Positions 8,670-63,652 of a stretch of 64,000 nucleotides of DNA are shown piece after piece (positions within the stretch are counted from its first letter, which is position 1; each line of letters begins with the position of its first letter). Source of the stretch: Siphonodentalium dalli (lineage: Eukaryota; Mollusca; Scaphopoda; Gadilida; Siphonodentaliidae); NCBI GenBank assembly GCA_032622095.1, contig CP136068.1, positions 160,785,465 through 160,849,464 of the forward strand, read 5' to 3'. The notes under the pieces were generated by a model. It was not told the DNA's origin and did not search any database. It was given only the letters and a program-made list of their open reading frames with translations. The translations under genes and the position numbers were made by a program.

Positions 8670-9062
8670 CCCTTTACCCAACAGAACGGCCCTGTGCCAA
8701 TGCATTCTCTTATATATGCGAGTCGACCATAGGTCGCCTCGCATATATAAGAGAATGCATTGGCTTAACACATTAAAAATTATAAAATTGTTAAAGAATG
8801 TAAGAAAAAAATGGTAAAAAGTGTTAAAAAAATATTTTTTTTAGGCCAATGCATTCTCTTATATATGCGAGGCGACCTATGGTCGACTCGCATATATAAG
8901 AGAATGCATTGGCACAGGGCATAACTGTAACTATCACAATGTGGTCAAGGAGCCGGTTCCAATGATATCCATATTTGTATGGTTTTATTTAGACAGACCG
9001 AAGATAATTTAGGCTGTTGAAGCTTTATTTGGCCGGTTTTGGCCGGTTTGTTGGGTAAAGGG
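8670..9062. mobile_element. Nested-palindrome MITE, copy 1, shell CCCTTTACCCAACA, TTAA flanks
   Basis: TTAA (8666-8669) then CCCTTTACCCAACAG; the right end is TGTTGGGTAAAGGG then TTAA (9063-9066). CCCTTT termini with TTAA duplication match piggyBac-like elements. Inside are two 69-bp palindromes, 8696-8764 and 8845-8913, in inverted orientation, with CCCTGTG before the first and CACAGGG after the second. The A/T-rich spacer contains TTGTTAAAGAATGTAAG. After the second palindrome about 115 bases (CATAACTGTAACTATCACAA ... TTTAGGCTGTTG) are shared with 38467-38575. It is non-coding. A sister copy with the same shell is at 62518-62887. Confidence 0.92.
8696..8764. repeat. Core 69-bp palindrome, left type
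   Basis: A perfect 27-base stem starts GCCAATGCATTCTC and ends TATGCGAG. Next come one T/C mismatch, a 5-base inner stem CGACC/GGTCG and the loop ATA. The mirror-image right-type copy is at 8845-8913 (GAGGCGACCTATGGTCGACTC centre). The single mismatch is kept in nearly all copies in this window, so the orientation of each palindrome can be read. Confidence 0.97.
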
Positions 9063-9531
9063 TTAACCGATTATACGAAACGGATGACAGATGATCGACA
9101 CATACTAAAATATACGCAGTGCCCTGTTGCCCAGATATCAAATCAGGGTATTCTCAATTTCCCTGGTTCACAAAATGATCTGAATGATCCGAATTGGGTT
9201 TAGAACCAGGGTTGCTACTATTTTTTAAATGTCTATATTTGAAAAAAAATCCTATAAAAGGGCACAATTATGAAGTATGAATAAGATATGTAATACATGC
9301 AAATAGTGTTTGTTTGTAGCTTTATGGTGTGTTTTGTATATGATTAGTGTATATGATTAGTGTATATGATTAGTGTATGTTAATCATGTATGTTTGATTA
9401 ATTCAAGGTGTTACATGCTCCTGTTTACAACCTCTAGTTTATTGTGAACATTTATATAATGTTCATAATGTTCTATATGTGTAAATAGTTCACTCATTGC
9501 TCGTGTTCCACGTAAATACGGCTGAGGTTAA

Positions 9532-9800
9532 CCCTTTCATGACGGGAGCAGCGCTGGTACAGCATTAAATATCCTGTGCCAGTGCATTCTCTAAAATATG
9601 TGAATCTCCATTAGAGAACCTCGCATATATAAAATAATGCAATTGCTTTACAAGGTCAAAGTAAATATTATTAGACCAATGCATTATCTTATATATGCGC
9701 GGCTCCGTGTGGGAGACTCGCATATATATAAGATAATGCATTGGCACAGGGTTGTTACAAATTTTGAGGAAGCTCCAGTCATGGAAGTTTGAAAGCATAA
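9532..9800. mobile_element. Diverged nested-palindrome MITE, shell CCCTTTCATGACGGGAGC, TTAA flank
   Basis: TTAA (9528-9531) then CCCTTTCATGACGGGAGC. Two degenerate core palindromes follow (about 9583-9655 and 9683-9745, AATGCATT...TATATGCG). The right side has GAGGAAGCTCCAGTCATG, the inverse of the left shell, with TTAA at 9801-9804. This is an old copy of the shell seen intact at 49409-49856. The minus-strand ORF 9565-9798 is an artefact of the palindromes. Confidence 0.75.
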
Positions 9801-9975
9801 TTAATTCATTCGTTTGTTCAAAAAAACGTGCTTATGAAATTTCGCTGACTTTGGACTTTTTCCAAATTTGATTCGGTCGCTGATTCTGGATATATGATCC
9901 AGTTTAGTTTCGAGAATTCTAACAACACATATTCTTAGTCAACTCATTTTCTTAACTGAGAAATATACACGTTAC

Positions 9976-10895
9976 AGGCCCATTTAATTTTCGAGTCACC
10001 AATTATATTTTATAGTGCGTTTTAATAACAATCTATTTTATACGGTTTTAATAACAATCTATGACATAAAATATGATTACAGTAATTCATCACAATTTGT
10101 AACGTCTGTGTCTCAAAAGGTGACCATAAGTAATAGCAAATAGTTGAAATCATAGAAACATTTCCCTCGTTTTGCTCCCAGAATGCAACATAATTCAAAC
10201 TAAGATATAAAGCTATTGCCTTTCCATTAAAAATAATAGACTTTGCAGTACAATCCAAATGAAATTTAAGCTCAGAAAACACATCGGAACCTAAACAAAA
10301 ACACACTGTTCACAGTTTATTACACCATATAAGTTGATCATACAATGTTTTGGAGCTTCCTCTTTCATGTGGTATATACTATGGCATATATGTGACCCGC
10401 CATATCAAATCCAGTCGTAAGTCGGGATTTTTTTTACCCTGTGCCAATGTATTCTCTTATATATGCGAATCGACCATATGTCGCCTCACATATATAAGAG
10501 AATGCATTGGCCTAACAATTTTTTATCATTTTTTAAAAATAAATGTTTCTTACAATTTTTAGGACATAAAATAAAAAAACATCCATTACCCTGCAGGGAG
10601 CCCCACACATATATAGAAGCATATAGAAGAGTGTCGTCTGCTCATGTTTGTCTGGGGCTCTGTATGGGTGAAATTATAAAATTGTTAAAGAATACAAGAA
10701 AAAATTATTAAAATTGTAAATAATTGTTAGGCCAATGCATTCTCTTATATATGCGAGGCGACCTATGGTCGACTCGCATATATAAGAGAATGCATTGACA
10801 CAGGGTAAAAAAATCCCGACTTACGACTGGATTTGATATGGCGGGTCATATATTTTCTATAATGTGATCTGGGGGTTCGCGAATTTAGTGGGCCT
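9976..10895. mobile_element. MITE of the GCCCACTTAATTTTCG family, interrupted by another MITE
   Basis: The left end is AGGCCCATTTAATTTTCGAG. The right end is GCGAATTTAGTGGGCCT followed by TTAA at 10896-10899. The internal block GTATATACTATGG (about 10372-10384) matches 3578-3590 of the copy at 3323-3641. A nested-palindrome element has inserted at TATA near 10390. The right end lies only 18 bases before the CTLD exon 3 start. Confidence 0.7.
10390..10857. mobile_element. Nested-palindrome MITE, copy 2, shell TGTGACCCGCCATATC
   Basis: The outer inverted repeats (about 48 bases) start TGTGACCCGCCATATCAAAT and run through AAGTCGGGATTTTTTT directly into CCCTGTG. The mirror image follows the second core, ending ATATGGCGGGTCA near 10857. 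The core palindromes are at 10443-10511 (three substitutions) and 10731-10799. The spacer holds an extra insert (10561-10675, CATCCATTACCCTGCAGGGA ... GTCTGGGGCTCTGTATGGGT) that is also in the truncated copy at 26245-26490. The flanks share TATA, suggesting a TA or TATA target. Confidence 0.9.
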
Positions 10896-10913
10896 TTAAC
10901 AATCCTTCCTCAG

Positions 10914-11161
10914 ATCTGGACATTGATTATTTCGGGATTGGTGGAAACGACCTGGTTATTGATGGTGACTGGAAATGGGCTTCACGTGACGGCGAGGACA
11001 ATATTACCTGGACATCATGGTATCCCGGGGAGCCAAACAATTTTGCTCTGTGGCCTTGGACAGGCAACGAAGATTGCATTCAGATCTGGATAAATGATGT
11101 TGCAACCTGGAACGACAAATCGTGCGAATCTGTGTGTGCTTTTGTCTGCGAGAAACTGTAA
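10914..11161 (+). CDS. C-type lectin-domain gene (gene 1), last CTLD exon with stop
   Basis: The acceptor CAATCCTTCCTCAG ends at 10913. The first two bases complete the Asp codon split with exon 2. It reads DLDIDYFGIGGND, then WKWASRDGE, WTSWYPGEPNN, NEDCIQIW, TWNDKSCESVC and AFVCEKL, then TAA at 11159-11161. EPN, the E of NEDC and the WND triplet are the Ca2+/sugar site of CTLDs; EPN is usually mannose-type and WND is the classic beta-4 motif. EDC pairs with KSC, and EHC (exon 2) with the final FVC. The joined three-exon domain is about 142 residues, a normal CTLD size. The stop overlaps a perfect donor (CT|GTAAGT at 11158), so a further exon cannot be fully excluded. The product is probably a secreted Ca2+-dependent lectin, perhaps in recognition or adhesion (inference). 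Confidence 0.93.
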
Positions 11162-12037
11162 GTTTTGTATGTCTTAATTTAAAGAGGCTTTCCATCGATC
11201 GGAGGGAAGGGGATGGGGGTTAGACTCGTCCCTGGCTCATATGTGAAACACTACGGTGATATCGCTCTGTGGCGTGCCCTCCTATAATATCGACGTCCAA
11301 AGCAGAGCGATGGCAAGGTTTATAGTCCGGGGACCAGTCAAGATGGGGGTGGGCAGCGTGGACATTCCATCTGCTCTATATGTCATGCCATTGAGCCAGG
11401 TAAAGTTCTCAATTTTGATACAGCTCTTTGAGTTTGAATCTTTCAACAGTTTTATGTTAACTGAAACTTCCAATAGTTGACAACAGCCTAGCGACCTACA
11501 TGTATTATGCACACGATTCACGATACTGAATCGGGGTTCACGATTAGATACCGATCAGTCTACCACCTAATACTCCCACGATTTAATAGTTTATGCTACT
11601 GAATCGGTGTTCACTTTTAGATAGTGATTGGTGTACACTCGGGACCACACGTGCCACGCGGTGTTATAGGATTGTTTAAAAATGAGTTAATCGAAAGGGG
11701 GATAACTCAATATAGAACGTATATTTGACTAAATAACGTGTAGCACTCCCAGGTTTCCTTTTCACTAAGTAATAACTCTTAGACATGATGATAGTTATGC
11801 AATACAAGTAAACATGTATACCAGCAGTCACGGAGTTATATGCATTAAAACTTCTCTACAATTATTCTAAGCTGATTTCCTTTGTCTCATACCGATTGGT
11901 TAAGCCAGGAGACAATGGGTGTGCGCCCAGGTGTGTAATGATTCCGTATGACTCACGCCACTGAGACATAGGCGTCTAATAAGCCGAATGGTTCCAATTT
12001 CCCCTTACATCCAAAAATAATGAGTTGAAGATCTTGT
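11162..12037. other. 3' flank of gene 1, no polyadenylation signal recognised
   Basis: The sequence after the stop is AT-rich. No clear AATAAA is seen in the first several hundred bases, so the 3' UTR end is unknown. The ORFs at 11256-11521 overlap on opposite strands and look random. Confidence 0.4.
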
Positions 12038-12325
12038 ATATCACATGAAAAAACTAAAGCTTTATGCCTTTTTAGCAAATCAAAATCTTTAAAAGAAGCT
12101 GAAAAATACATGGCATTGGCTGAGATGCTTCACAGTATTGCGCGCTCTGCCTTGCGACGAAACACATTGTCCCCAATTCGTCTCTTTGTTTTTGTACCTA
12201 TTTTCGTTAGTGCAACGAAGTTAGAGCCAAGTATCCCGGAAAGCACGCGGAGATTACCCACTAGTGAGAAATAAGAAGATATCTAATGGATTTTTCAATG
12301 ATATTATAGGGGTTTCATGTGATAT
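12038..12325. mobile_element. MITE with ATATCACATGAAA ends, copy 1
   Basis: The left end ATATCACATGAAA mirrors the right end TTTCATGTGATAT. The interior words AAAGCTTTATGCCTTTTTAG and GTTAGTGCAACGAAGTT recur at 41605-42020 (same strand) and 48843-49277 (reversed). There are no coding motifs, and the target duplication is unclear. Confidence 0.75.
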
Positions 12326-12922
12326 ATTATTATCATACGCGTGCTATACAGACAATGAGTCAAAGATGATCAATCAAATTACAACTGGAATACAATCTCC
12401 TTTTGGACATTTTTATAAGGAGAGATAATGGTTCGTGGAATTACAAAATAAGTTTTATCGAACATACTCACGGCTGACCAGCTGTTTTGGATAGTGTTAG
12501 AAACGGAGAAGACAGAAACAGATTATATCGCCACATCTTTGGTCATATATAGATCCACCGGTACTTTTGATGTGCAATAAAGTTAACAATTTTTATTTCT
12601 GAACATCTTCGTGATTTAGTCATTATAATTATTCCAAAAGGCAGTATATTTAGTGGTGGGTAGTTGGATCCGGTTATAACACCTTCTGATTTAGTTAAAA
12701 CATGATACTCATTTTGAAATGTAATCATAACTTCGCATGCCACGTTTTACATAGACTGAGAACAAATCGCTATCTAATCGTGAGCCATTTCTATATATTG
12801 TTTTATACATGTATATAATCATTGGTGTATTGGCTGATGAAACACACTACATAAAATCCAGCGTTCAGAATATAAGAATATTTTGTAGCGCATTAACCAT
12901 TCCATGAAAATTTGCGAAAACC

Positions 12923-13048
12923 CTGTGTCAATGAATTATCTTATATTAGGGAGCCTCAACTATAAAATATAATGCATTAGCCTAACAATGTTGACATTGA
13001 CATTGTAAACCAGTGCATTCGCTTACACAAATAAGAGAGTGCTTACCT
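12923..13048. mobile_element. Old, degraded nested-palindrome MITE
   Basis: GCGAAAACCCTGTGTCAATG matches the inner shell plus core start of the 49.4-kb copy. Fragments of two palindromes follow (AATGCATTAGCC, CCAGTGCATTCGCTTAC). It is heavily mutated. The rest of 12326-13670 shows nothing recognisable. Confidence 0.65.
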
Positions 13049-13675
13049 ACTACTAAGATAAAGACATATTCTGGACTTGTTCGGGTGCGTGAAACTAATA
13101 AGTGGGTACTCATGCGCTATGCCAACTGTGGGAATTTAGCATTCTACTAACATCGCCGAAAATCTCAAGAAATCGACCATACCCACTCCATAGATATCAC
13201 CGTCTGAACTAAGCTTATTTGTAAATATTTACATCTCGATTCGGGACGCAACAATCGGCGTTAAACTAACGCAAATGATTTCGCCATCGGGACTCAGCAT
13301 TGCATTGAATTAAAATATAAGAATGACATTTTGTGTGCTGTAAATTTGGATTAGTATTCGTAACAATAACTACTTTGAGCAAGATTATTCTCATTTTCTA
13401 TTTGATCACCCAACGGGAGTGTTTCACATCACTTTAAGATGTTCACAATAATTTTAGCCGATCGTTATTGGTGATGTTATACATGTATATATGTTGCTCA
13501 GCTATTCACAGTGTGGGCTGGATCGATAGATATACATAATTATTTGTATATGAAGTATTAGAAAGAAGTGGATTGAAGTAGATTTAGTATAACGGGTACG
13601 CAGTATAGGTCAGTACAAAGCAGGGTGTGAGGTGGCATATCAAATGTATCTGACAAAATCAGCAAACAGTTAATA

Positions 13676-13770
13676 TGATTGAAGAGATTTGTATTCTGCC
13701 AGTGCTTGATGATCACCATACGGTTCATATGAATGAAGATATTTGTATTCTGCCAGTGCTTCATTGTTCG
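13676..13770. repeat. Two-copy tandem repeat, about 57 bp
   Basis: GATTTGTATTCTGCCAGTGC is followed by GATATTTGTATTCTGCCAGTGC-type sequence (TGAAGATATTTGTATTCTGC), each with a similar lead-in. The KHWQNTN peptide repeat seen on the minus strand is only this. Confidence 0.7.
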
Positions 13771-13949
13771 ACGTTGGAGCGAATTTTCCAATCTAAACAT
13801 CTTAAATACATGTAGTAAACATGTTATTATATAATATCCTCTATCTTTTTCAGATGCTCTACTGATGATTGATAGTCATTATATGGTTGTTATCTGGTCT
13901 GCAACAGCTCAAACTCCATGCATGGTTTACCTCCCTTGATGACTCCATA

Positions 13950-14460
13950 GGACCGCTGCCACAGGCAACAGTTTACACACATTGTGTGGACATCCGGAAT
14001 ATTATTGATTACCCCGTGTTCACATATTACAGGTGTTTATCTACCCGAAGTCAGTCGTATCCCATGAGGCCAAAGGCCGAATGTGATACGGCTGGCTGAG
14101 GGTAGGTAAAACTCCGTACTACTTGTTTTTATGTGTAAGCAATTTTTACTAAGTGGGTGTCTGACCAGGTAACACGTTGTCCAAACGAAGTGAACACCAA
14201 ACCTGGCACACCATAATGACAAAAACAAGTCAAAGTGAGATGCCGGCAGGTAAACCAGAGGCCTTTTGGAAAAGTCAAATAGGACCGCTGCCACATGCAA
14301 CATTTTACACACATTGTGTGGACATCCGCGATATTATTAGTTACCCCTTCTCTGCTCACGTAATACATGTTTTTACCTACCCAAAGTCAGTCGTATCCCA
14401 TGAGGCCAAATGCCGAATGTGATACGGCTGGCTGAGGGTAGGTAAAGCTCCGTACGGAGT
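13950..14460. repeat. Tandem duplication of an approximately 175-bp unit (spacing about 335)
   Basis: GGACCGCTGCCACAGGCAAC ... CCCATGAGGCCAAAGGCCGA ... GAGGGTAGGTAAAACTCCGTA (about 13951-14120) recurs as GGACCGCTGCCACATGCAAC ... GAGGGTAGGTAAAGCTCCGTA (about 14282-14455). It is probably part of a mobile element. Confidence 0.85.
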
Positions 14461-14490: not shown

Positions 14491-14514
14491 GACGATTTTA
14501 TCTATTGACCTTAA

Positions 14515-14817
14515 AGGTTCTCAATCCGATCACACGCTCTTAAATTAACTGACGGTCTTGCAGATAAAGATGGATAACTCTAAAATCAAGTGGTAATAAT
14601 AACCACTTGATTTTAGATTTATCCATCTTTATCTGCAAGACCGTCCGTTTGACCTCGTGCTTCTGGCCCACAAACAATTGAAATAAGAAATTGCAAAAAT
14701 CGATATCTGATCACTCAGAGCTTTGATGGGTAGGTTCCTCGACTCGAATCAAATATTTTTTACCTCTCAAGGCCAAAGAAATAGTAATTTAGGAGCGTCT
14801 GATCGGATTGAGTACCT
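14515..14817. mobile_element. TTAA-flanked MITE (GTACTCAATCC family), compact copy
   Basis: TTAA 14511-14514, then AGGTTCTCAATCCGATCA; the right end is TGATCGGATTGAGTACCT, then TTAA 14818-14821. The interior has a strong hairpin (AAGATGGATAACTCTAAAAT against ATTTTAGATTTATCCATCTT, about 14565-14630). It is the parent form of the minisatellite-bearing copy at 7554-8481. Confidence 0.85.
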
Positions 14818-15495: not shown

Positions 15496-16129
15496 CCTCT
15501 ATATATTTACATAGCCTGTCTGTTTTACACTAAATCCTGTTTGGTGATGGGTCAATTGCCAATAATGCAGAGATCTATCGAGTGTAACACTAACCGGAAG
15601 TTACAATCTGTTGACATAATCTGACCAAATTAATCACCAAAAGAGATCAGCAGAATAATTGGGCGTGCTTTTCAAAGTTCAGCCAAATTGCATCTGAAGC
15701 CAGTTATTTATATCAATCACGTAGTCGTAGCTAAGAGTTTAGAAATAGTTTTTCGGGCTGACTTAATGTGCTGCGTGGGCTAGTCTCAAAGTAATCGGCA
15801 ATTTTGTGAAAATAAATAAGAATACACACTGCTTTTTTATGGGAAAAGCTATGTAAAAATAAGAAATGAATGTAGTTTGGGGGATACGACGCTGTGGTCG
15901 TTGTGGGCACGTTCTGTTACAAACGGAATGTTATGTGAAGGCTTTTTATTCGCTGTAGTATTGTTATGAGTGTAATTTGGCTGTGTATGGTGATGCGCGA
16001 TCACAATGTGTTCACACAACAAAAAAAAAATCCCGGATAAATAGTGGATTTGCAATGTCAAATTCAACTATAATAGTTAATAAAACTATAATAGTTGAAT
16101 TCATGATTTGCCTGTCTGTCAATAGACCC

Positions 16130-26244: not shown

Positions 26245-26490
26245 CTGTTTAAATTTCACCCATACAGAGCCCCAGACAAACAGAAGCAGACGACACTCTT
26301 CTACATGCTTCTATATATGTGTGGGGCTCCCTGCAGGGTAATGGATGTTTATTATTTTATGTCCTAAAAATTGTAAGAAATTTTATTTAAAAAACATGAT
26401 AAAAAATTGTTAGGCCAATGCATTCTCTTATATATGCGAGGCGACCTATGGTCGACTCGCATATATAAGAGAATGCATTGGCACAGGGTA
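26245..26490 (-). mobile_element. Truncated nested-palindrome MITE (half of the copy-2 type)
   Basis: In reverse complement it matches the left half of 10430-10680: shell poly-T, CCCTGTG, the core palindrome (26414-26482, perfect), the spacer, and the CCCTGCAGGGAGCCCCACAC ... CTCTGTATGGGTG insert. The second core is missing. Confidence 0.92.
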
Positions 26491-37605: not shown

Positions 37606-38251
37606 ATATTATGGCCGGAAGTGATCAGAATGTTTAGCATATCATCTTTATTTGAGAACGAATCTGTTTGAATCTTAGTCCCCGTTAATAATATTATACA
37701 TTTACAATTGAGTAATGCTGCGTAAACTCCATACCTGCTTACTATTGTGAGTTGGGAACACTTAGGCCAAGAACTGTCCTTGTACCATATCCAAATAAAA
37801 GTCTCCCATTTCCAAAATGACGCCCACAATGGCGAACAGATTTTGAAAAATCACCGAAATTCCCTCATATTCACATCATTGAGCATTATTGTCGAGAAAC
37901 TCACCGATTCTTACAGTTGTGTTGGAAATACTGAGGTGAAGTAATTACCTTACATCTCATACAAGAAATTGTTTTCCAAATCGAAGATGGCGGCCAAAAT
38001 GGCGACCGAAATATGAAAACACGCCTACATTCATTTACTTGCTTACGATGGGCGTTATTGTTTCGCGATTTCTACCCACCAATACATGTTGATATGAAAT
38101 ATTGATATGAAGTATGTATTCATTTGAGTTTGGCAATTGATACTCACAGTCAAGTAGGCGGTCAAGAAGTGTGGGTATATTATGCATTATGGAGTGCACT
38201 CTTTCATAGTATAATGTTCCACTATCTGATTACCTGCCAAGCGGAAATTTA

Positions 38252-38575
38252 TTGTGATGGTTACAGTTATGCCCTGTGCCAATGCATTCTCTTATATATG
38301 CGAGTCGACCATAGGTCGCCTCGCATATATAAGAGAATGCATTGGCTTAACACATTAAAAATTATAAAATTGTTAAAGAATGTAAGAAAAAATGGTAGGC
38401 CAATGCATTCTCTTATATATGCGAGGCGACCTATGGTCGACTCGCATATATAAGAGAATGCATTGGCACAGGGCATAACTGTAACCATCACAATGTGGTC
38501 AATGAGCCGGTTCCAATGGTATCCATATTTGTATGGTTTTATTGAGACAGACCCAAGATAATTTAGGCTGTTGCA
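38252..38575. mobile_element. Nested-palindrome MITE, copy with shell TTGTGATGGTTACAGTTATG
   Basis: The core palindromes are at 38278-38346 and 38399-38467, both perfect to the consensus with the fixed mismatch. The left flank TTGTGATGGTTACAGTTATG and right flank CATAACTGTAACCATCACAA are mirror images, a third shell type. The right flank then runs through 38575, sharing about 110 bases with 8914-9035, and abuts the LINE ORF1 end. Confidence 0.9.
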
Positions 38576-39436
38576 GCTTTCTGTTTCCTTTTCAGTTCTA
38601 TGCGGAGTTCATAGAACTGTTCCATTTGCGTTTTCGTGAGATTTATATTAAAGTATATTTTTGCACTACCTGTTGTTTTACTGTCCTTTTTATTGTATCT
38701 GATAGCATCACGAATAATTTTGTCTCGAGTTTGTTTATTCTTCAGGACTATCTTGACCGGTCGATTTTTGTTCGAAGACTTTGTTGCCAAGTCTGTAAAA
38801 GGACAAGACATCGCTGTCGTTAAATTTTGACCTTTCTTGTAATTCATTGCTTATAATGTGCCAGTACTGTTCTCTTGAATATTCTTCTGTTTGTGGCATT
38901 TCGGGTATATTTGCTATCACAATGTTGTGGTTCTTTGATTCTGAAATTTTATCTTTTTTGCGTTTATGGGTGTTTTAAGTTTTTCTTCTATAACATTTTC
39001 TAGCATAGTATGTTTTTTTGTATTTCTGTTCGCTGTTGTCCAAATAACTTGTTTTTCTCTTCGAATTCATTGATTAATTTTTCTGATTTTCTTTTTGATG
39101 CCTCATCATGTATGTTTCTCTCCGTTCAGTAGATTGTTTTTCTTCACATCTATTTACTCTTTTTTCTAGTTTCAACATATTTGACTCTATTTTCTGTAAT
39201 CTCTTTTCCATTTCTGAAGTGTGTTTTTCCATTTTTGCGCTATACTTCTTTTCGAAGTTATCAATGCGCTGATCCACTTTAATTTTGACACACGCATCAC
39301 ATTTGTCCATATTTGCTACTACTTTTTCCAGCAACTTTTCGATGTGTAACATCCAAATTCCCATATCCTCAGAACTTAATTGTTCCCGCATTTTCGATTG
39401 TTCTTTCCTGCTTACCTGTTCCATATTTGGTCCCAA
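38563..39436 (-). pseudogene. LINE ORF1 (L1-type, coiled coil plus RRM-like domain), broken
   Basis: The minus strand from 39436 reads MGPNMEQVSRKEQSKMREQ, then a long coiled coil (KKYSAKMEKHTSEMEKRLQ, IESNMLKLEKRVNRCEEK) to a stop at about 39074. Farther on come NIVIANIPE (about 38930-38905), VLSFYRLGNKV, then in the next frame RPVKIVLKNKQTRDKIIRDA, KIYFNINLTKTQMEQFYELR, ending KRKQKAATA stop at 38563. Coiled coil followed by IPE...FRLG...RPVKV-LKN...L- is the order of L1-type ORF1p (RNA-binding chaperone of the retrotransposon). At least two frameshifts. The last codons and stop lie in sequence shared with the adjacent MITE. Confidence 0.75.
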
Positions 39437-40950: not shown

Positions 40951-41036
40951 TGGTCGACTCGCATATATAAGAGAATGCATTGGCATAGGGTAAAAAAAAT
41001 CCCGACTTACAACTGGATTTGATATGGCAGGTCACA
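40951..41036. mobile_element. Truncated nested-palindrome MITE end (copy-2 shell)
   Basis: Starts mid-palindrome (TGGTCGACTCGCATATATAA) and runs GCATAGGG, poly-A, ATCCCGACTTACAACTGGAT, ending ATGGCAGGTCACA. This is the right half of the 10390-10857 type. Confidence 0.9.
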
Positions 41037-43621: not shown

Positions 43622-44100
43622 GTAAGGGCTTACCCTATCACGGTGGGGAATCACGTGGTTTCGACATTGGTGAGTACCACGCATTTAAAATGGCGGATGC
43701 CAGTGCAAACTCACAACATAATAACGAGGAACTGAACAAAACATAGCATTTCGACTGTTATACGAGCATAATTATGCTAGATTATTTATCTTGGATAATC
43801 ATTCGACTGACAGCATTGGACAGAATGTCAAAGCAAACAACTGCGAATTTGGACACAAATGAGGTATCAGCTTGTTTGATAAATAGTATAACATATTATG
43901 GTAGCTGCCAAACTACTATTTAATAAACGCGGGCTGCAGGGTGTGCCGATGGATTAAAATTGGAAATCCAAAATGGCTGCTGGCGGCCATGTTTTTTAAC
44001 GAATTTTGGAAAACATCGCAGGTTACTGCCGTTTTCGTCGTTTCTGGTCGGGTTTGTGATCGCCTCGGCCATTTTGAAAGCGTGATATCATCAACTCGAA

Positions 44101-44353
44101 ATCACGTGATTCCCCATCGTGCCTATATGATATCACGTGATTCCCCATCGTGCCTATATGATATCACGTGATTCCCCACCGTGCCTATATGATATTACAT
44201 GATTCCCCACCGTGCTTATATGATATTACATGATTCTCCACCGTGCCTATATGATATCATGTGATTCCCCACCGTGCCTATATGATATCACATGATTCCC
44301 CACCGTGCCTATATGATATCATGTGATTCGCTACCGTACCTACATAATATCAC
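44101..44353. repeat. 31-bp minisatellite, eight units
   Basis: ATCACGTGATTCCCCACCGT...GCCTATATGAT units start at 44101, 44132, 44163 and so on every 31 bases. The first units carry the palindrome TCACGTGA (an E-box word), later ones decay to TTACATGA or TCATGTGA. Intronic to gene 2 if the exons belong together. No spacers between units, so not CRISPR. Confidence 0.95.
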
Positions 44354-46371
44354 AGTTCACGCTGACCAGAACATGATGTTGGCCAAACGACCATTTCTGA
44401 ATTTGCTTGGTCATTTTTCAGAAACATTGGCCAAATTGAACAACCGAAAATATGGGAAATAGTAATAAAACATATATTGGAACATAGATAAACAATTAAC
44501 GGGAACCAAGACACTCGCACTGGGTAATGCTAAAAATATAAGTATCACGTACTATTTTTCGCGCACCCATCGATGCGCGAATTTAAAACTGAGCTAAAAT
44601 TAGTACGATTCCCCAAGTTTAATCTAACCCACAGTCCATAGGAAATGCAAGAGGGCTATGTTGCTAAGTTTACATATATTATGAACGATTGAATAGACAA
44701 TTACGCCTATACATGTATGTATATATTTACATTCGACCAGCCGCTAGCAAGACCATTGCTCACAATTCAAGTGACAAATCATGGTAACATATATATTGTT
44801 GAAATGCTTGTATAAGAAATACTAATATTAGTTTCTAGTTTATTGTCTACACGATGTAAATCCACGGCGATGGTGTTTAATATACACATATATTATCTCC
44901 AGCAGCGACTAAGAACGAAACATCAGCTCCAAAATATACGAAAGTATCACGGAAATATTTAGTAGTACGAAAATATTTTTGTGAGTTTTGAATTCGCGCA
45001 GCTAGGTGTGTGAATTTAAAGTGGGAGAATTCAAAACTGAGCGAAAAATAGTACTGCGCGAATTTAAATACGAGTAAGGTAATGCCATATGCGCCATGTG
45101 CATGGGATGAGGACAAATTTACTGTCACTCTTAGTGTGAGATTCTAAATCTATAGTCGAGCGTCCTACGATAGAACATGACTGGAATGAGGAATATGAAG
45201 ATTTCATTGTCAATAAGGTACTCTATTGACTGAAACCATATAATCGCAACGATGCAAAGTCCCAGGTTGGACATCAAATATGTTTGAAACGATGAATCAA
45301 TGTTTATGATAGTGCACATACTAAAACAAGCTACCTGAGCCATCGTTGAATTATAAATTATAAAGATAACAGAATATACTTAGGGTTGTCATGATATTTA
45401 TATACGTGTGGGACAAATATAATTGCGAGAAAACTTTTGTTTCGTCACCATAATGGATGGTTGTAAAAGCTATGAATCCACAATAATATTATTGTATTGA
45501 CTCTGTCGCTGCCACGGTCATATTCGTAATTATGTATGAACTATATATGTAGCGAAGTATATAGTTGGTTGGCGGGTCGGTCACAAAGCTTTTTTTCCTG
45601 TGGTATTTTTGTCTGCGAACAAACCGGTTTAAAGAGCATCCGCAGCGATCGAATATGATTAATAATAAACAGCGTCTATTCACAAACACTGGTTCACGTA
45701 CTGACTAACCGATATCATAAGCTGCTTTAAGTCCACAGTGCAAATGCATTAATTGATCAAACGTTTAACTCACTGAAAGTACATGTACATATATATTGAT
45801 GAAGTTTTCCCGTTTAATATAATTTGTTAGGCGAATGTACTGTTCATTGTTACCTGAATGTCATTCCAGTATATAACCCGTCGTCTGTCTGTCTGTCTGT
45901 CTGTCTAACTCGGTCACGCATTTGGCGCGTTTATAACTTTTCAACCATGCGTCCAATTTGGCCCAAATTTTTACCACGGCCTATAGCGTGCGGTTAAACA
46001 CTTCACGCTAAATTAATTTGTCAGTTACGGTTGAGTGTGAATATAAGTAACGAATGTTGATTTTGTCGTGGAAGTGCATGTAGTGAGGTCTACATTACTT
46101 AGAGACTCGAACGCTTTTATTTTATTTTAATTTGCCAGTTCGGTGTGAACATAAGTTAAGAATGATGTCTTGTTATGCAAATTCTGCATTGAGTGTGGAA
46201 TCGAAGAAGTACCGGTAGACCCAGAAGATGGCGAATGGACACAGTCTGACTTCCCGTCAGTGGGTATACCGTTCAGCAGATTCGCCGGAACTCGGTTTGA
46301 AAAACCACATTCCCGGCCGGGACTAATACATTGTAAACAATACTGCCGACGCTAATTAATAATAATGCTCT
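44354..46371. other. Presumed intron of gene 2, little recognised
   Basis: The words TACTATTTTTCGCGC (about 44549) and GCGAAAAATAGTAC (about 45036) are inverted around a region rich in CGCGAATTTAAA, possibly a weak inverted-repeat element. A (GTCT)5 run lies at 45889-45906. ORF 46170-46355 is GC-richer than its surroundings (GIEEVPVDPEDGEWTQSDFP) but unrecognised; I cannot tell if it is an exon. Confidence 0.35.
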
Positions 46372-49277: not shown

Positions 49278-49408
49278 CTAGCAGAATTACTCAGCGTTGC
49301 CCAAGTTAAAGTGATGTGAAACCCTCGATCTGCTGTGGACATTTTGTGGGAATAGGGAATAATCTTGCTCAAAGTGTTACACGCATTCTCATAAATTGTA
49401 TATCCGAA

Positions 49409-49856
49409 TGACGGGAGCTTCCTCAATTGTGTTGCGAAAACCCTGTGCCAATACATTCTCTTATATATGCGAGTCGACCATAGGTCGCCTCGCATATATA
49501 AGAGAAAGCATTTTTTTTTTATCAATTTTGCTTATTCTTATTCTTTAACAATTTTGATCATTTTTTATAATATTTTCTTACATTCGTTGAGAATTTTATC
49601 ATTTTTTATAATTTTTTTCTTACATTCATTATAAATTTTATCATTATTTCTTACATTCTTTAATAGTTTTTTTTTTCACCATTTCTTACATTCTTTAACA
49701 ATTAAATGTTTATTTTTTTTATTTTATATAATTTTTTTTAGGCCAATGCATTCACTTATATATGCGAGGCGATCTATGGTCGACTCGCACATATAAGAGA
49801 ATGTATTGGCACAGGGTTTTCGCAACGCAATTGAGGAAGCTCCCGTCATGAAAGGG
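49409..49856. mobile_element. Nested-palindrome MITE, shell CCCTTTCATGACGGGAGC, expanded spacer
   Basis: The right shell ends CCCGTCATGAAAGGG followed by TTAA 49857-49860. The left shell starts at ATGACGGGAGCTTCCTCAAT (terminal CCCTTTC lost) and runs through GCGAAAACCCTGTG. The left core (49447-49511) lacks its last bases, and the right core (49742-49810) has four or so changes. The spacer has grown into a degenerate array of TTCTTACATTCTTTAACAAT words. The host word CATTCTCATAAATTGTATA flanks the left end and recurs at 49905 and 50431. Confidence 0.88.
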
Positions 49857-49860
49857 TTAA

Positions 49861-51090
49861 GGAGTTTTTTTTTATCAAATTTATCCCCATCTTACACACA
49901 CGGCATCAATCTCATAAATTGTATATCCGAAAAGTCAGAATGGAGCACTGGCTGACGAACCTTACGGCCTTTCCGTTTGTCAACATAAGTAGAGTGAAAG
50001 AAATAATGGCTTACAACCTATCCGTCATATAATTTCTCCACATAATGAAGGTGGTGCACACATGTATGGATGTCAAAAGAAAGGGGAGGTTGTGTGATAG
50101 GCATATTAAAGAAAATTCGAGGCTAAATGTGATGATGACCAAGGTCCCAATTTATCGCAGACAAATTGCTCCTCGTTCTGATGACATGAATTTTTAGGTG
50201 GAAGCTGAACACTGGAGCGGTTTATTAGAATTTTGAAAATAGTTTTAGAACGTACCCCACAAAAAAAAAGATTCATTTAATGCCAAAGGTAGAATTTCTA
50301 AGTTTTTGAAAATTACTGCCAATGAGATAAAAAATGACAAAATGTTTTGATAAGACCATCATCAGTTGCAGATTGCTGACTATATGCCATGCTAAGCGCA
50401 TGTCACATCACGTTTCGACTCGTGTTACAGGCATTCTCATAAATTGTATCCGAATGACATCAAACAACGTCATTCTTATTCATACATTATAAGTAGTGGC
50501 TCATCTTGTCGGAGTTATTGTCATTTTTATGTCGTGATTAATTCGTCCCACCAATAAAGAAGTAGTTATCATTTTTTAATATCTTATACAGTTGATGTTG
50601 TTGGAATTGACGTGTGTTTATTGTTGTTTTAATAACTTTTTATTGGGATCAAAATATGAACATCATCAACACATTACTTTGCAAAAATAAGAGACGACAA
50701 TTGTGTTTTACATAGAGATGTCTGAGTAAATCTAGTGGGTTAGACTTTTTTATTTTGAAGACACCTGGTTATCTCCACGAATTTACAGATGTTTTAAAGA
50801 AATGTCCGGGTGTTCCTCTGTTCGTGGTGCTATACTGACTCAGTGTAAAAGAAATGTTGCCATATACCAGCTACAAGTGGCCGACACAGCGACATGTTAA
50901 GTTGTTTATGCGAGGATATGAGTCAGTAGTAAAAATGAAAGAAATCTACTGTATCAGGCAGATGTACCCTTGTCAGGTGACAGTATTGCAGGATCCTGAA
51001 AGTATTGTGCTACTGACTGTGTTTTGTCTTATCTCAGAAGAAAATATGTTTGACTGCACAATGTGACACTATTTTTACCAGGCCTGCTAT
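49861..51090. other. AT-rich presumed intron, no gene recognised
   Basis: ORF 50854-51066 (70 codons, YSYKWPTQRHVKLF-like) has no recognised motif and no convincing splice sites. CATTCTCATAAATTGTAT recurs at 50431. Confidence 0.35.
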
Positions 51091-52825: not shown

Positions 52826-53028
52826 TAACATGTGATTAAAAACACAAACACATCATTTGGCTTTAAAACTAGGCCTTTCACGGCTTCAGGGCCGGTCTTC
52901 AGGTTCCGCCATTTTTATTTTAAATAAAAATGGCGGAACCTGAAGATCGGCCCTGAAGCCGTGAAAGGCATAGTTTTAAAGCCAAATGATGTGTTTGTGT
53001 TTTTAATCACATTAATCACATGTTATCT
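52823..53028. repeat. Near-perfect 206-bp palindrome
   Basis: AGATAACATGTGATTAAAAA ... GGTTCCGCCATTTTTATTT meets its mirror image. The arms of about 98 bases differ at only two bases plus one 9-base duplication (ATTAATCAC) in the right arm. It sits between two (AT)n tracts, as if inserted at TA. It is the youngest-looking hairpin in the window. Confidence 0.96.
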
Positions 53029-53823: not shown

Positions 53824-54690
53824 ATACACCCAAAATAAAGTTTAGTCAAAATTGATGGGTTATCCTAAGTTGGTTTACTGGTTGGGCCAATTTCGAGAAG
53901 TTGGGTTAAATTATTGGGCTAGATTGTTGGGTTAGACTAGTTTAGTATTTAGTTGCACCCATTGATAAAGATTTGCTGAATGTGTGCTAACTTTGTAATA
54001 TTTTCTTCTCTTTATTGGTATCAAACTGAAATAAATACACATTGAAGGCATATGCTATGTCAGAATTATATAGTTGTAGTATTGCTTGTTTCTCTGGTAC
54101 AAGTATTCTTGTCATTATAAGTATGCTACACCTCGTTTCGGACTTTCATATTACATACTAGGTTCGGACTACCATATTACATACTAGGTTCGGACTACCA
54201 TATTACATACTAGGTTCGGACTACCATATTACATACTAGGTTCGGACTACCATATTACATACTAGGTTCGGACTACCATATTACATACTAGGTTCGGAGA
54301 CTGGTTTAATTCAACATATCTCCTCTATTCAGACGTTAAGGTCCGAAATTAATCCATTCATTTGACGTATTTTTTGGAAATCTTAATTAATTACCAGAAT
54401 ATCAGATTATATGGTTGATACTCATTCATTGAGATGAAATATAATTATATTGACATAGGTTTTCTCTAAACCATGTTTAGTTACTTCAAACCCAATGTTT
54501 GGTTATTTTAACCAAATGTTTAGTTACAAAGATGGGTTACAATAACCAATGTTTGTTACTTTTTTCGAACCCAACTAGTTTAGTTAACAGATTTAACCCA
54601 AAGCTTGGCCGGATTCGGTGGACAAAACGATGGGTTAGAGTCTGACTAAACTTATATTATATTCAACCCAATTGTGTTGAGTGTTCAACA
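53824..54690. mobile_element. TGGGTT-rich inverted-repeat element abutting the EGF exon
   Basis: ACCCAAAATAAAGTTTAGTC near the left end mirrors GACTAAACTTATATTATATT...CAACCCAA at the right. GATGGGTTA and its complement TAACCCA are scattered throughout, and AACCCAATGTTTGGTTA-type words cluster at 54490-54600. A 26-bp array lies inside. Boundaries approximate. Confidence 0.5.
54135..54299. repeat. 26-bp minisatellite, about six units
   Basis: GGTTCGGACTACCATATTAC + ATACTA, starting at 54161, 54187, 54213, 54239 and 54265, with a partial unit at each end. The full units are identical, so the array is young. No spacers. Confidence 0.97.
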
Positions 54691-57510: not shown

Positions 57511-59085
57511 AATAACCTTATTCCGACGTCTCTTTATAATAAAAGATTTAAAGTAAATAAGTGATCAAGGCAAGCTATGTCTAAATTTAATGCGCACATA
57601 TATGTAATCTTTGTTACAATTTCATGAATGATATGGTATTCAGAATAAATTTTGACATGTGTCGATCACGCTGCGAATTGATGAAAGAATGAATATTCTG
57701 CAACATAAATTGTGAAATACCTTTATTTCGTATTCACATATGTGTTAACTTACCCTTGGTAAATTTTATAATTAGAAAGGGAATTTAAAAACTGAAATGA
57801 TGTAGCGATCATGTTCTAACCCAAGCAAATATACCCCCACCAATACGCCCCGCCACACGAACACCCCCTCCTACCCGCCTTTGTCCCTCCTGCATGCATG
57901 GCTACAGTACTGTCCACAACATTAATCGACCATTGCAAAAGATGCCTTAGTTAAGACAGAACATGCGAAAACAAACGTATTTGTATATACATAATCCGTC
58001 TAAATAGTGAATACTCGCCTGTTAGCGTTTTCATCTCTCATTCACACACATGGAACACGCGTTACGTCTGCACAGTAGCGTTGTTCAGAGACAAAGAAAG
58101 CAACCCCGGCCTCTAGCTTGTGTTATCTGATACAGGTCTCACATATGCATGCTTGCTGCTGGCATAGCATGGACGCCGTGGATGCGATCCTTGTAATAAT
58201 AAAATTATGGGCTAAGAATGAAACCCGGCGCCGGTTAAAGAAATAAGCGAAATTAATGCAGGACATCTATAAGTTATTCGGTATATGTACATCGCCGGGC
58301 CAACATTGAAATTCTCGATTTATTTAGTATGATACCTGATTTGGTATAACTGAATGTCTGCATACAGAGCGGTGCCGACAAAATTGTCAGGGACGTTTTG
58401 AATGTGTGTGTGGGGTGGTGGGTGGCGTGGTGCGGGCAAGGACAACGCTACATGTGGGAGTGTGACACCTCTCACAATATTTTCCTCAATTTTCAACATT
58501 TGGAAATTAGGAGGTCAAAAATCGAAATTTTGGAAATTTCAGACCAGGTAGAATTTGGTAGGGATTGTTAAATTTCTACGTGTAATTTTGTCTAATTTTA
58601 ATATTTTAGTTGGCAAATTTGACTCCTAGGTGGGTGACTAGTTTAAATGTTTTGGAATTTGGGATTTTTCAGTCGGAAAATCTACAGAATTTCCGAAATT
58701 TGGAAATTTAGGAAAATTTCTGCAAAGTTGATTGGAAAATGTAGCCCCAATGGGGGGGGGGGGGGGGGGTGCAGTTGGAATATCCGAAGTGGACACCCCA
58801 TTCCCCATTCCTGACCTAAATATGCTTTATTTGTAATAATTTTAATTCATTTTCGTGAGATACACGACATGTGTCTATAGATGTATAACATCTATATCAC
58901 ATTTATCTGTAGGGCGTTTTGTCCGGATACCTGATGCGAAAGGTCTTCAGTCATGGGGTTTTTGTGGGTAAACGTTGTCAGCATGTCATTTGACTCAATA
59001 GTGTTAAAGTGACATCAAATGTTTACCACATTGCTATAAATATTCGCTGGCGACATAATAGCTCTACTGACCTCCGACACTGTTC
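57511..59085. other. AT-rich sequence with a TTGGAAATTT-rich patch and poly-G run
   Basis: GGAAATTT/AAATTTCC words cluster at 58490-58740. A G run of about 18 lies at 58753-58770, then GTGCAGTTGG. No gene recognised. Confidence 0.45.
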
Positions 59086-59091
59086 CAAGAA

Positions 59092-59265
59092 AGGTGAATT
59101 TAATATGTATAAATGCATGCACAAATTCAGGGTCCTAAATTCATGCAACATTTATGCGAGATTTAAAAATATAAATGAGAGATTTATATTTTTGTATAAA
59201 GGCGAATTTAATATGTATAAATGCATGCATAAATTCAGGGTCCTAAATTAATGCAACATTCATAT
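59092..59265. repeat. Two-copy repeat, 111-bp period
   Basis: GTGAATTTAATATGTATAAA TGCATGCA...AAATTCAGGGTCCTAAAT at 59093 recurs at 59204 with the same order. A TAAATATAAATG...CATTCATATTTTATA inversion also surrounds it. Confidence 0.9.
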
Positions 59266-59531
59266 TTTATAAATCTCGCTTTTCATGCAGTATCGCATGT
59301 ATCAGGTGAAGGTCATTCTTCAGTTACCTTCACGGTGTACTCGCTCTCGACTCTGGAACACATTTAGCTCCCTGATTCTGGTAATGCGCATACTGCACAA
59401 GACCAGCATATGCTGTCCAGCGATGGAGAAACTTGTCCGAATACCCATCAACTCAGAGGAGATAACCTAATGTACATATCATAACATGAATTGGCAATGG
59501 CTAGCTTTGGTTTTGTCTATTGGGGTGTAAC

Positions 59532-59700
59532 CCTTTCATGATTGGAGATACCTGAAATTTTTCGAAAACCCTGTGCCAATGCATTATCTTATATATGTGA
59601 GTCGGTAATAGGGCGCATTGCATATATAAAAGAATGAATTGGCCTAACAATTTTATCATGACCTTGTAAGCCAATGCATTCTCATTTATATTGACCGTAT
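59532..59700. mobile_element. Degraded nested-palindrome MITE, CCCTTTCATGA shell
   Basis: AACCCTTTCATGATTGGAG, then TTCGAAAACCCTGTGCCAAT, a mutated core (about 59574-59642) and the start of a second core (GCCAATGCATTCTCATTTAT, 59671). The right half is lost. Confidence 0.8.
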
Positions 59701-61860
59701 TATTGGGATGAGGGGTGAAATAATAAAACAAGACACAGCAACTGCGACAAAGGATGACGAAACCCGACACAAACCATATACATAATATGTATCGACGACT
59801 ATTGAGAGTTTTCTCTATAGATCATTGTTCAAAATATAACGGAATTATCACTCATAGAGAGTGGCAAACAGTTTAAAATCCACGTTTTTTTCGGTCTACT
59901 TTCACCAGAAGTCTCCTAAATCATGTCATCTATCAACGATATCAGGTGGTATCATACTGTGTATATCTCCTGGTCCTGGTCCTGGGTTGTGTGCATAAAA
60001 TTTACCCTCATTTTGACTTCAGATAGTAATAGCGGAATGGTTATTGATTGATTTTCTTCAAGTGATCTGGTTCGTGGTCATTTTTCCGCCATTTTGAAAT
60101 CCAAGATGGCCGCTATTCTCATTTATCGAATTTCACCCATCTTACTAAATCACTCATCATCACATCAGTTTGCATTATCAAGCTTAGAAACAATTTTGCA
60201 CACTTCATACGTTTATGCTAAAAATACATATGAGGGAATTTACTTGTAAAGAAATGGAAATATTTGATAATATTGTGATAATTAACCACAACATTTGAGG
60301 TACAAAATGTGTTTTTTTCACATAGGGTACATTCCGTTTTGTTTTTCTGCACATAAGAAGAAAAGGTCAATGTATTAAATATGGTTGTATTCTCTGGCCT
60401 CGGGAACACTCACAAATGTAAAATTTTTGTTTAGATGTTATGATTTGCCCGCAGAAATAAATAAAACCTGACCATCCCCTAGACGGGACAATAACCACGA
60501 ACCAGATCACATGACCAAAAGAATGTAAATCAATAACTATTCCGCTATCAACATCTGAAGTTATAATGAGGCTACATGTTGTGCACACAACCCCTGACCA
60601 GGAGAGTACATAGACTGCTGTATTGTAATACAACACAATCCGAATTCTTGCGCTTTTGTATTCCGTCCTAACGAATTTCTAAAAACACTGACTGTCTGCT
60701 GAATTTTGGGGTAAGTGATGACATAATCTTAAAGATCACATCACCTACGGCACAGGATGATATGTTTAGTCTATTATTTATTTTCACAATTTTTGAGATT
60801 GTTCACGAGATCCCGCACCATATCAATATTGAATTATCGTCCATTAAGATGGGGAAAACAATTGAAATTTACCTATTGTTTGGTCTATTTCAAAATAAAT
60901 CTCAAAAATCTTGCCGTCTATCAACAAAATCATGGCATTTCCATACTGATATATAAGTCGGTATATACTGATATATCTTAGCACAAACATATCCCGAGAT
61001 CATGTGCTGCTTTACTTCGTCCGGGCGAATTTTCCCCAAAACTGAAACTTTTACTGAATTTTTGGGGTGAAATGATCTTACATAATACAACGTATTGTAG
61101 ATGCTAACATATTCATCCTATTATGTTACTAACGCTACAAATAAACGATAATATGCGTTGGAATATATGCTATGGCGTCCATACATGTACATCAGATAAA
61201 CATTTCTGTCATCCTAAAGGTGAGAAAGATACAAGTTAGGCTATTAAGCTTACACGTACGATATACTCAAGACATCTGAACCAATTTCAACCAAATCAAG
61301 CAGAACTGTGCAATGTAAGTGAGGCATACCATTACTTATGAATATTCCAACTTAATGGATCCAAAATTGTCACTTTAGCTCAAAATGACCGCCAAAATGC
61401 AGCCAAATTATCGAAAATGGTAGATATTACCATAGCGTGCCATGCAATCGGTTACAAGTTGGGCTGATGAATAACATCGACTAATATGATCTATATACAT
61501 TCAATACTAACAATGGCAAGGCACGTTGTTTATTGTTTGTTATTGTAACCACTGGGAAATGGAGTTCCAATTTTGCCCTGAAATGGTAGAATTATATCTC
61601 AGGTTCACAATAATATATACATTTGAAACATTTGTCTTAATAATTTGCATCAAAGTGCCTCGTCTTAAAGATGGCGGCCATGTTGGACGCCATCTTGTCT
61701 CGTGTGGACATGGCCACTTTTTCGTGTTAACATTGCTTAAAGTTGAGGGACATAATAATTAAGAAAACGAGTGGGCGAAGTCAAGTCATGTGGTCAGGGA
61801 GCAGGGATACCCTATCAGATCCCAGACTATGATATTTGTGTTTTCATCGTTGTTGCGTGA
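59701..61860. other. AT-rich sequence, no gene recognised
   Basis: ORFs up to 89 codons show no motifs. GATGGCGGCCATGTTGGACG-type words (61673) and CCGCCATTTTGAAATCCAAG (60088) are GC islands of unknown nature. Confidence 0.35.
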
Positions 61861-61863
61861 CCT

Positions 61864-61998
61864 TTTGACCTCCGGTGACACACACATGTCATATGTTTGT
61901 TGCTACCAGTGGATAGAGTATTCAAATTGACCTCTGGTGACGTCATCACTGAACACACGTGTCATATGTTTGTTGCTACCAGTCGATAGAGTATCCAA
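61864..61998. repeat. Two-copy tandem repeat, about 66 bp
   Basis: TGACCTCCGGTGAC...GTCATATGTTTGTTGCTACC AGTGGATAGAGTAT is followed by TGACCTCTGGTGACG...GTCATATGTTTGTTGCTACC AGTCGATAGAGTAT. Confidence 0.9.
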
Positions 61999-62517
61999 AT
62001 ACCTACCGAACGACACATCACCAATTACCAATGGGATTTCAGATCCCCCCACCGCATCATAATCAGCACCAAACAAAAGAGTAACCGAGTAAGGCCAGTA
62101 TGTACAATAGTGACCCGGTAGGTACAATAGGACCCAAAATATTTGCTGTTAACATCGTTTTTTTTCTTACCAGTACATATTAGGGTACATGGAAATCCCA
62201 AAGAAGTTAAGTAGTTGAGGTGCACGAGGTGTCCTACCAGCGCATGTGCTATGTCTGGTGCGCATTATAACAACCTTCACAATATTAATGATATATCACA
62301 AGACGGTTTGTTGTGCCGATGGACTAAACTTTCTGAAATTGATTCCGTCCGCTCTACTCTATTCTGGGGAAAATAAATAAAAAACTTGTTGACGGACACA
62401 CGGACGACAACCCATGGTAATAGTTCAAACATTTCGTTGTAAACTTGAGCTAACTAGGATATGACATATTATTTGTAGTATTTTGGTAGCTACGAGCATA
62501 TTCTATACTAATTTTAA

Positions 62518-62887
62518 CCCTTTACCAAACAGAAGGGCCCTGTGCCAATGCATTCTCTTATATATGCGAGTCGACCATAGGTCGCCTCGCATATATAAGA
62601 GAATGCATTGGCTTAACACATTAAAAATTATAAAATTGTTAAAGAATGTAAGAACAAATGGTAAAAAGTGTTAATGCATTCTCTTATATATGCGAGGCGA
62701 CCTATGGTCGACTCGCATATATAAGAGAATGCATTGGCACAGGGCATAACTGTAACTATCACAATGTGGTAAAGGAGCCGGTTCCAATGATATCCATATT
62801 TGTATGGTTCTATTGAGACAGACCGAAGATATTTTAGGCTGTTGAATCTTTATTTGGCCGGTTTTGGCCGGTTTGTTGGGAAAAGGG
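62518..62887. mobile_element. Nested-palindrome MITE, shell CCCTTTACCAAACAG, TTAA flanks
   Basis: TTAA 62514-62517, CCCTTTACCAAACAGAAGG, core 62544-62612 (perfect), a short spacer, second core 62673-62738 (first four bases lost), CACAGGGCATAACTGTAACT, right end TTTGTTGGGAAAAGGG, TTAA 62888-62891. Sister of 8670-9062. Confidence 0.93.
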
Positions 62888-62891
62888 TTAA

Positions 62892-63457
62892 AAGAAGCTG
62901 AATACCCCATTTGTGTCCACTATCAGCTTGTTTTTAAAATAATGCTCGTAACAATCAAAATTCTGTGTTATGTGTCAGTTCCTCGTATAATATGTTTTTG
63001 TGCGTTTGCGCGTGACAAATGTGTAAATATGTTCTTTTCTAATGAATTGTTCTTTGTTCTTTATGTATTTGTGTTATGTTACCTGTAACTCTTCATATGA
63101 TGGAGGCTAGAAATAAATATATATGTATAATTGGACCGCTCTGGGTATAGGTCTATATATCTCTCACTGTTTCAAAGGCACTCAGTTCTATAATGTGTAT
63201 CGATTGTAACGGCGGAGATGACACATTCGCTATATTTTTAATATATCCGGTAAAGTATATGATTTTAAAATGTTGCTTCCAATAACATGCATTAAGTTCT
63301 CTCGAAAAGTGCCGATGATGGGATCAACTAAGTATATGTACCGATATTAGCATTGTTTACTCAACTATATATAGACTTAAGTGAATCTTATTATAATGAT
63401 GTGAGAAGGTCAAAAGTTCTCATTTTGAATGCGTGCTACTCGCCAACATCGAATCCA
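62892..63457. other. AT-rich sequence, nothing recognised
   Basis: Flank between two palindrome loci; no gene or repeat structure was identified. Confidence 0.35.
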
Positions 63458-63652
63458 AGTGATTCCCCATCGCGAATTTATACTATATATAATCTATGCA
63501 ACCCGTATACCCTGTGCCAATGCATTCTCTTATATATGCGAGTCGACCATAGGTCACATCGCATATATAAGAGAATGCATTGGCCCAACAATTTCTTATA
63601 ATTGTTTATAAGTGATTCCCCATCGCGAATTTATACTATATAATCTATGCAT
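63458..63652. mobile_element. Solo core palindrome between direct repeats
   Basis: A single left-type core (63516-63584, two changes) with CCCTGTG but no partner is bracketed by AAGTGATTCCCCATCGCGAA...TATAATCTATGCA direct repeats (about 63458-63501 and 63610-63650). Confidence 0.85.

Follow-up and report, generated by a model that had tools for sequence, protein, structure and literature searches.

One hairpin core carried by unrelated short inverted-repeat elements in the scaphopod Siphonodentalium dalli

The core and its copies

A stretch of 64,000 nucleotides (nt) of the Siphonodentalium dalli genome (NCBI GenBank assembly GCA_032622095.1, contig CP136068.1, positions 160,785,465 to 160,849,464, forward strand; hereafter the window) was analysed for a palindromic core of 69 bp, which an initial annotation had placed at eleven loci. 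Core sequence was detected at all eleven; nine hold it whole, and the loci at 12.9 and 40.95 kb retain remnants of it (Table 1). The repeated unit is a 75-nt arm made up of CCCTGTG and a self-complementary hairpin, and this arm is present whole or in part at each locus; best E-values by locus were 5e-26 (several arms), 1e-16 (59.6 kb) and 8e-15 (9.6 kb), and the weakest loci gave 3e-10 (40.95 kb, half an arm) and 5e-5 (12.9 kb, a decayed remnant). Folding of the arm at 8690-8770 reproduced the hairpin geometry annotated before, with a 27-bp stem, one mismatch, a 5-bp stem and a 3-nt loop (-36.3 kcal/mol, z = -15.6; z = -24.6 for both arms together). The readable copies belong to short non-coding elements that resemble miniature inverted-repeat transposable elements (MITEs); single elements with the core measure about 185-480 bp, one copy in shell B about 920 bp. 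Four outer shells, A, B, C and E, recur around the core in the window and in the sampled loci described below.

Table 1. Core-bearing elements and fragments in the window (positions from the first base of the window).
Feature	Position	Strand	Details
Complete shell-A element, 401 bp	8666..9066	+	TTAA at both ends; arms 8690-8764, 8845-8919
Old shell-B element, B1 left and B2 right	9528..9795	+	right tip decayed, end approximate; arms 9572-9646, 9675-9751
Complete shell-C element, 460 bp	10391..10850	+	TA on both flanks; arms 10437-10511, 10731-10805; loop has extra inverted-repeat insert
Decayed shell-B copy, two half arms	12903..13050	+	TTGCGAAAA precedes CCCTGTG; limits approximate
Fragment with one consensus-identical arm and shell-C loop	26239..26494	-	arm 26414-26488; outer shell diverges past TTTTTTA run
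Shell-A derivative without A tips	38251..38580	+	two arms, with 107 nt from the A right flank; 21 nt of this flank repeated in mirror image on the left side
Shell-C fragment, half arm and C end	40951..41036	-	
Young symmetrical shell-B element, two B2 ends	49408..49860	+	mirrored over 33 nt with 1 mismatch; no left tip; loop long and repetitive
Perfect 22-bp direct repeat around the 49.4-kb insertion	49387..49408, partner 49910-49931	+	
Old shell-B copy, B2 end	59527..59691	+	second arm truncated
Complete shell-A element, 378 bp	62514..62891	+	TTAA at both ends; arms about 62538-62612, 62670-62744
Shell-E fragment, one arm	63501..63609	+	ACCCGTATA precedes CCCTGTG; arm 63510-63584; direct repeats 63457-63500, 63610-63651 on either side

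For genome-wide counts, exact patterns were matched against 2,226,750,531 bases in nine contigs, and results are written as plus + minus strand. The first 33 nt of the arm (CCCTGTG and half of the hairpin) gave 62,101 + 61,883 = 123,984 matches and the reversed 33-nt control 0 + 0; the core is far more abundant than expected by chance. A 24-nt core word was searched for in viral and prokaryote contigs and gave no match. The flanks of arms were surveyed in the window, in 20 stretches of 10 kb each placed at round coordinates, eight of which contained the core, and at 30 places of the 33-nt exact match in the first Mb of contig C1; five further chosen loci were added. Sampled loci and stretches carry L-numbers (L025:1972 is a position inside the sequence L025). 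The 30 loci are not independent of each other, since tandem arrays account for many of them (for example L037-L046, spacing about 11.2 kb). Genome-wide tip counts cover E and C. Tandem arrays of kilobase units, each with a core, were seen in several places (L030-L033, about 14.6 kb, and L037-L046, about 11.2 kb, both within C1 0.73-0.92 Mb; also C1 94.24-94.29 Mb).

Four shells around the core

In shell A, TTAACCCTTTACCCAACAGAASGG typically abuts the left arm, and a right flank of 147 nt ends in ...GTTACAGTTATG next to the right arm; TTGTGATGGTTACAGTTATG, previously listed as a shell of its own, is the inner end of this long right arm, and the 38.3-kb copy has 21 nt of it in mirror image on its left side. 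Shell B has the terminal inverted repeat (TIR) TTAACCCTTTCATGACNGGAGCT, followed by two distinct inner ends, B1 (...GCATTAAAGA, preceding TCCTGTGCCAGTG) and B2 (...TTTTGCGAAAA, preceding CCCTGTGCCAATG). The end of shell C is TGTGACCCGCCATATCAAATCCAGTCGTAAGTCGGGATTTTTTTA, with 6,429 + 6,633 exact tips in the genome, and shell E has TTAACCCTTTGAGTGCCAGGTCCGATTTTTGTATCAACCCATATA, a single arm and a differing right end, with 7,409 + 7,560 exact tips. The 63.5-kb copy is a fragment of this fourth shell, which the initial annotation had not recognised. Cores at L049 and at 26.4 kb were unassignable by their flanks; the latter has a C loop. In six shell ends (A left, A right, B1, B2, C and E) the outer boundary CCCTGTG falls at the same base, with TCCTGTG in B1. 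The inverted pair bounded by CCCTGTG and CACAGGG, as described before, does not hold for every element; the E elements read have one arm and the A element of L051 one hairpin. Mirror-image outer flanks were confirmed at 10.4 kb (55-nt arms, 93%), 38.3 and 49.4 kb; at 8.7, 62.5 and 9.6 kb the left and right flanks are unlike each other. Old B copies, with their two differing ends, led us to drop the reading of every symmetrical shell as a simple TIR of a single family.

Shells A, B and E all start with TTAACCCTT, and their termini fit CC[C/T]T and a short TIR, which is TTAACCCTTT or TTAACCCTTC followed by about 8-13 family-specific nt. TTAA stands on both sides of most copies of A, B and E that are complete; an end is decayed in one E copy (L027) and in some of the old B copies (L023, L028, L029). 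With TTAA duplications, CCCTT termini and short TIRs, these three shells look as piggyBac-type MITEs do and may be compared with piggyBac-derived MITEs, from which shell C differs in having no TTAA. All five complete copies of shell C have flanks that match a 2-bp duplication, which is TA in three (10.4 kb in the window, L015, L016) and TT in two (L053, L055, by eye), and C is therefore not a TTAA element. For a Tc1/mariner-type element the 2-bp duplication fits and strict TA does not; judged from the target duplication alone, shell C would in our view be moved by a different kind of transposase.

For comparison of the cores, majority bases were determined over 75 nt from 11 distinct arms of A, 6 of C, 10 of E, 4 of young B and 14 of old B. 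The majority base was identical across A, C, E and young B, and old B differed from these at six positions, four of them in the hairpin tip. Mean core identity was 0.976 (A-C), 0.986 (A-E) and 0.969 (C-E), compared with 0.836 to 0.849 to old B and 0.824 within old B. Compared pairwise, the shell ends agree at 3-9 of the final 20 shell bases ahead of CCCTGTG. The loop sequence around TTCTTAYATTCTTTAACAATTTTATAATTT is common to A, C and the 49.4-kb B copy and is partly found in E; it is absent from the old B loops read, which measure about 30 nt. The B element L026 has both a B1 and a B2 end and carries the young core. Because the cores match and the loop is shared, the cassette of A, C, E and young B has one recent origin, with relatives pointing to B; because shell B has the most diverged cores, B is probably the oldest carrier. 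The comparison of sequences supports the core as a module shared by unrelated inverted-repeat elements.

An E-like shell was also found with no core. The 188-bp element at L025:1972-2159 has E-like tips at both ends and keeps the E layout as far as CAACCCATA; it tracks E through GTATCAACCCATA and then has a small hairpin of its own at the place where E with the core enters CCCTGTG. Its inner word TATCAACCCATATTTCCTTGA gave 5,341 + 5,217 = 10,558 exact genome matches, a count of a different word from the E tips and not to be added to theirs, and the first 100 places listed include at least 14 plus/minus pairs with a spacing of 126-142 bp, the pattern expected of a symmetrical element. The coreless element and its abundant inner word bear on the explanation that all shells belong to one family with one extended consensus and differ by truncation or decay, the outcome that the initial annotation had named as fatal to its module idea. 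The common start TTAACCCTT in A, B and E fits such a family, but every shell has complete elements with intact, differing ends, and unrelated shells adjoin identical cores; a single truncated family is, in our judgement, very improbable, and the idea of a module survives this check.

Spread of the core among shells

Insertion at random would predict C or T in front of CCCTGTG in about half of the cores. A pyrimidine was found there in 544 + 521 = 1,065 cases vs 123,984 exact cores, a share of at most about 0.9%, the limit being an upper one because the word used is two bases less strict at its end than the 33-nt word. The young copies read have a purine in this place, and L054, with a pyrimidine, is a B end with small changes. 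A freely jumping core was rejected on this count; since pyrimidine-preceded cores are rare, the core seems to travel with its shells and to have been transferred few times. The portable module proposed initially thus stands as one shared across unrelated inverted-repeat elements, but not as one that is freely portable, given at most 0.9% of cores after a pyrimidine.

The same count weighs on the possibility of a nested transposon, in which CCCTGTG...CACAGGG would be a past or present element inserted into several MITEs. An exact boundary is repeated in the six shell ends and on both sides of the core in C, A and the 49.4-kb copy, which favours this reading most, and CCCT is like the piggyBac terminal motif CC[C/T]T given in PMC2872659. 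The core junctions of A and B, however, have no direct target duplication, the TA on both sides in C being the only candidate, the cores are not at random sites (1,065 preceded by a pyrimidine vs 123,984), and E is single-armed; we regard a nested transposon as unlikely.

We consider it fairly probable that these MITEs share one internal hairpin cassette with B as its home lineage, and that a few founder captures were followed by amplification by the elements' own transposases. B elements with two hairpin arms are the most diverged, a young form with changed tip and loop arose, and its cassette is now present in A, C and E. Few and rare founder events would have carried the cassette from a B element into other MITE families, most likely by template switching or gap repair at the hairpins, with repair or replication passing from one MITE to another. 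Each chimera may next have been amplified by a transposase that recognises its ends, of the piggyBac type for A, B and E. Inverted duplication of one half through the hairpin may have given rise to some of the symmetrical members, among them the 49.4-kb copy.

Several copies are rearranged at the hairpin. The 49.4-kb copy has two B2 ends where old B has B1 and B2; in L026 the arms are swapped relative to most other B copies, with CCCTGTGCCAATG on the B1 end and TCCTGTGCCAGTG on the B2 end. L051 has a single hairpin bounded by CCCTGTG and CACAGGG in shell A, where A normally has two, and arms of L021 and L025 have deletions within the hairpin. The patterns of L026, L051, L021, L025 and the 38.3- and 49.4-kb copies are those that template switching, inverted duplication and deletion at hairpins would leave, and swapping of ends by template switching, as initially suggested, is plausible. 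In a further shell-B copy (L008:2378-2556) part of the hairpin (GCCAACGCATTCTCTTATATAT) is tandemly repeated, with about 22 nt per unit.

A number of points weigh against founder capture from a B lineage. Among the copies examined there was no capture intermediate, and no rearranged copy shows capture in the act. The fixed CCCTGTG boundary in six shell ends is not required by random template switching and looks like a former element end; insertion with a strict preference for a purine would escape the one-base test. The coreless E-like shell was read in a single element, whose tip departs from that of E at a few positions. The window, the 20 stretches and the 30 loci yielded no coreless copy of A, B or C, and the window and the 20 stretches no coreless pair of E ends; the sample of loci is small and partly biased. 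Tentatively, the hairpin may also be seen as a second-order parasite: as a cassette whose ends are fixed, it would replace the subterminal hairpin of unrelated MITEs by hairpin-for-hairpin switching and then spread with the transposase of the recipient, TTAA-type as well as non-TTAA.

Conservation of the stem was analysed in 40 arms selected by the author (32 distinct) with 500 shuffles. Paired cells made up 92.9%; 30 cells were changed on both sides vs 13.8 in the shuffles, and the covariation score was 0.125 vs 0.079 (neither value reached in any of the 500). Joint changes were located at the tip pairs 38-48 and 39-47 and at pair 11-74. The number of pairs with a change on both sides was 5 (shuffle mean 5.1, reached in 317 of 500), and the count of further pair types showed no excess (reached in 144 of 500). 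As the number of such pairs is at the shuffle level, the support for the stem comes from few lineage events, mainly at the tip and at pair 11-74. The alignment indicates that the hairpin is preserved through change, by selection or by templated correction. Selection would be expected if the hairpin aided transposition, as a cis-acting site or a cruciform for the transposase or a host factor, and if unrelated MITEs that gained it had prevailed. The excess of cells changed on both sides and the covariation score are in line with such a role, as is the hairpin that the coreless E-like element has at the equivalent place; the pair count and pair types at shuffle level, the few lineage events, the capacity of templated correction to preserve hairpins as well and the abundance of the coreless inner word speak against it, and we find a cis role rather doubtful.

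Related systems and neighbouring repeats

In foldback elements the modules belong to one family, and foldback elements are not known as TTAA MITEs. A modular analysis of transposable elements describes palindromic modules in different combinations (PMC2955051). In Galileo of Drosophila, TIRs grow by taking up internal or foreign sequence, and such material can move on to the opposite TIR (PMC4168063); the movement of material between TIRs is similar to the mirrored flanks described here. Galileo belongs to the P superfamily, with duplications of 7-8 bp and variation inside one transposon instead of a single interior across families, whereas the shells have TTAA or 2 bp, and a 7-8 bp target duplication was found in none of them.

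The closest likeness is to the CMITEs of the coral Acropora (Wang et al. 2010), for which PMC2872659 describes TTAA duplications and TIRs that differ around a conserved interior of 75 nt, whose origin is unexplained. CMITEs have mostly CCCTTT-type ends, occur in tandem arrays, are about 100 bp long and were estimated at 1,600 copies; the TIR of family I is also found on the autonomous piggyBac-like element AmiPB1, which is without the interior, and one interior across several families is called unusual among MITEs (PMC2872659). Different TIRs around one conserved interior, TTAA and tandem arrays are common to both systems. The coral elements are about 100 bp and TTAA-flanked in all families, whereas those described here are about 185-480 bp (one about 920 bp) and include the non-TTAA shell C. 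The interior here is a hairpin, with more than 100,000 exact arms vs the estimated 1,600 copies, the two interiors being compared by description only; 'palindrom' and 'hairpin' are absent from the text of PMC2872659. In the open PMC literature, mostly at the level of abstracts, no architecture of this kind was recognised besides CMITEs. The earlier statement that no named family has this architecture was too strong, since CMITEs share a conserved interior behind different piggyBac-type TIRs (PMC2872659). The principle is already known from CMITEs; the hairpin interior, the non-TTAA shell and the scale are new.

The results address the question of how new MITE families gain their ends and interiors and suggest that MITEs may trade internal parts and use different transposition machineries. 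One near-identical module with four unrelated sets of ends is accompanied by a surviving coreless relative and a recognisable likely home lineage, and because all three can be recognised, the order of events is testable from the genome sequence alone. Repeat libraries based on interiors would merge elements that are moved by different transposases.

Two core copies in the window are flanked by long direct repeats (49.4 kb, 22 bp, perfect; 63.5 kb, 44 and 42 bp), unlike the copies flanked by TTAA. At 49.4 kb the insert extends about 50 nt past the right TTAA of the element, as if break repair had inserted a genomic fragment. An inverted-repeat element at 3318-3646 has relatives flanking the 10.4-kb C copy (10177-10899); as these lie on both its sides, the C copy was probably inserted into an element of the 3.3-kb type. 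Alignment with the 3.3-kb repeat is compatible with insertion at a TA, though with the C tip out of place by 2 nt, and is given no weight here. A weak match to the C end is present at 16,024-16,057 (76% over 34 nt). Open reading frames with PAN and EGF domains are present in the window, as fits an animal genome, and one reading frame taken for a reverse transcriptase gave no Pfam family and no protein hit at E <= 0.001. Two other palindromes, near-perfect around a centre of 1 nt and without relation to the core, are located at 52830-53012 and 14547-14649, the latter with relatives in L006, L010 and L012. Minisatellites were found at 7457-8200 (24-bp units), 44067-44407 (31-bp units) and 54106-54313 (26-bp units).

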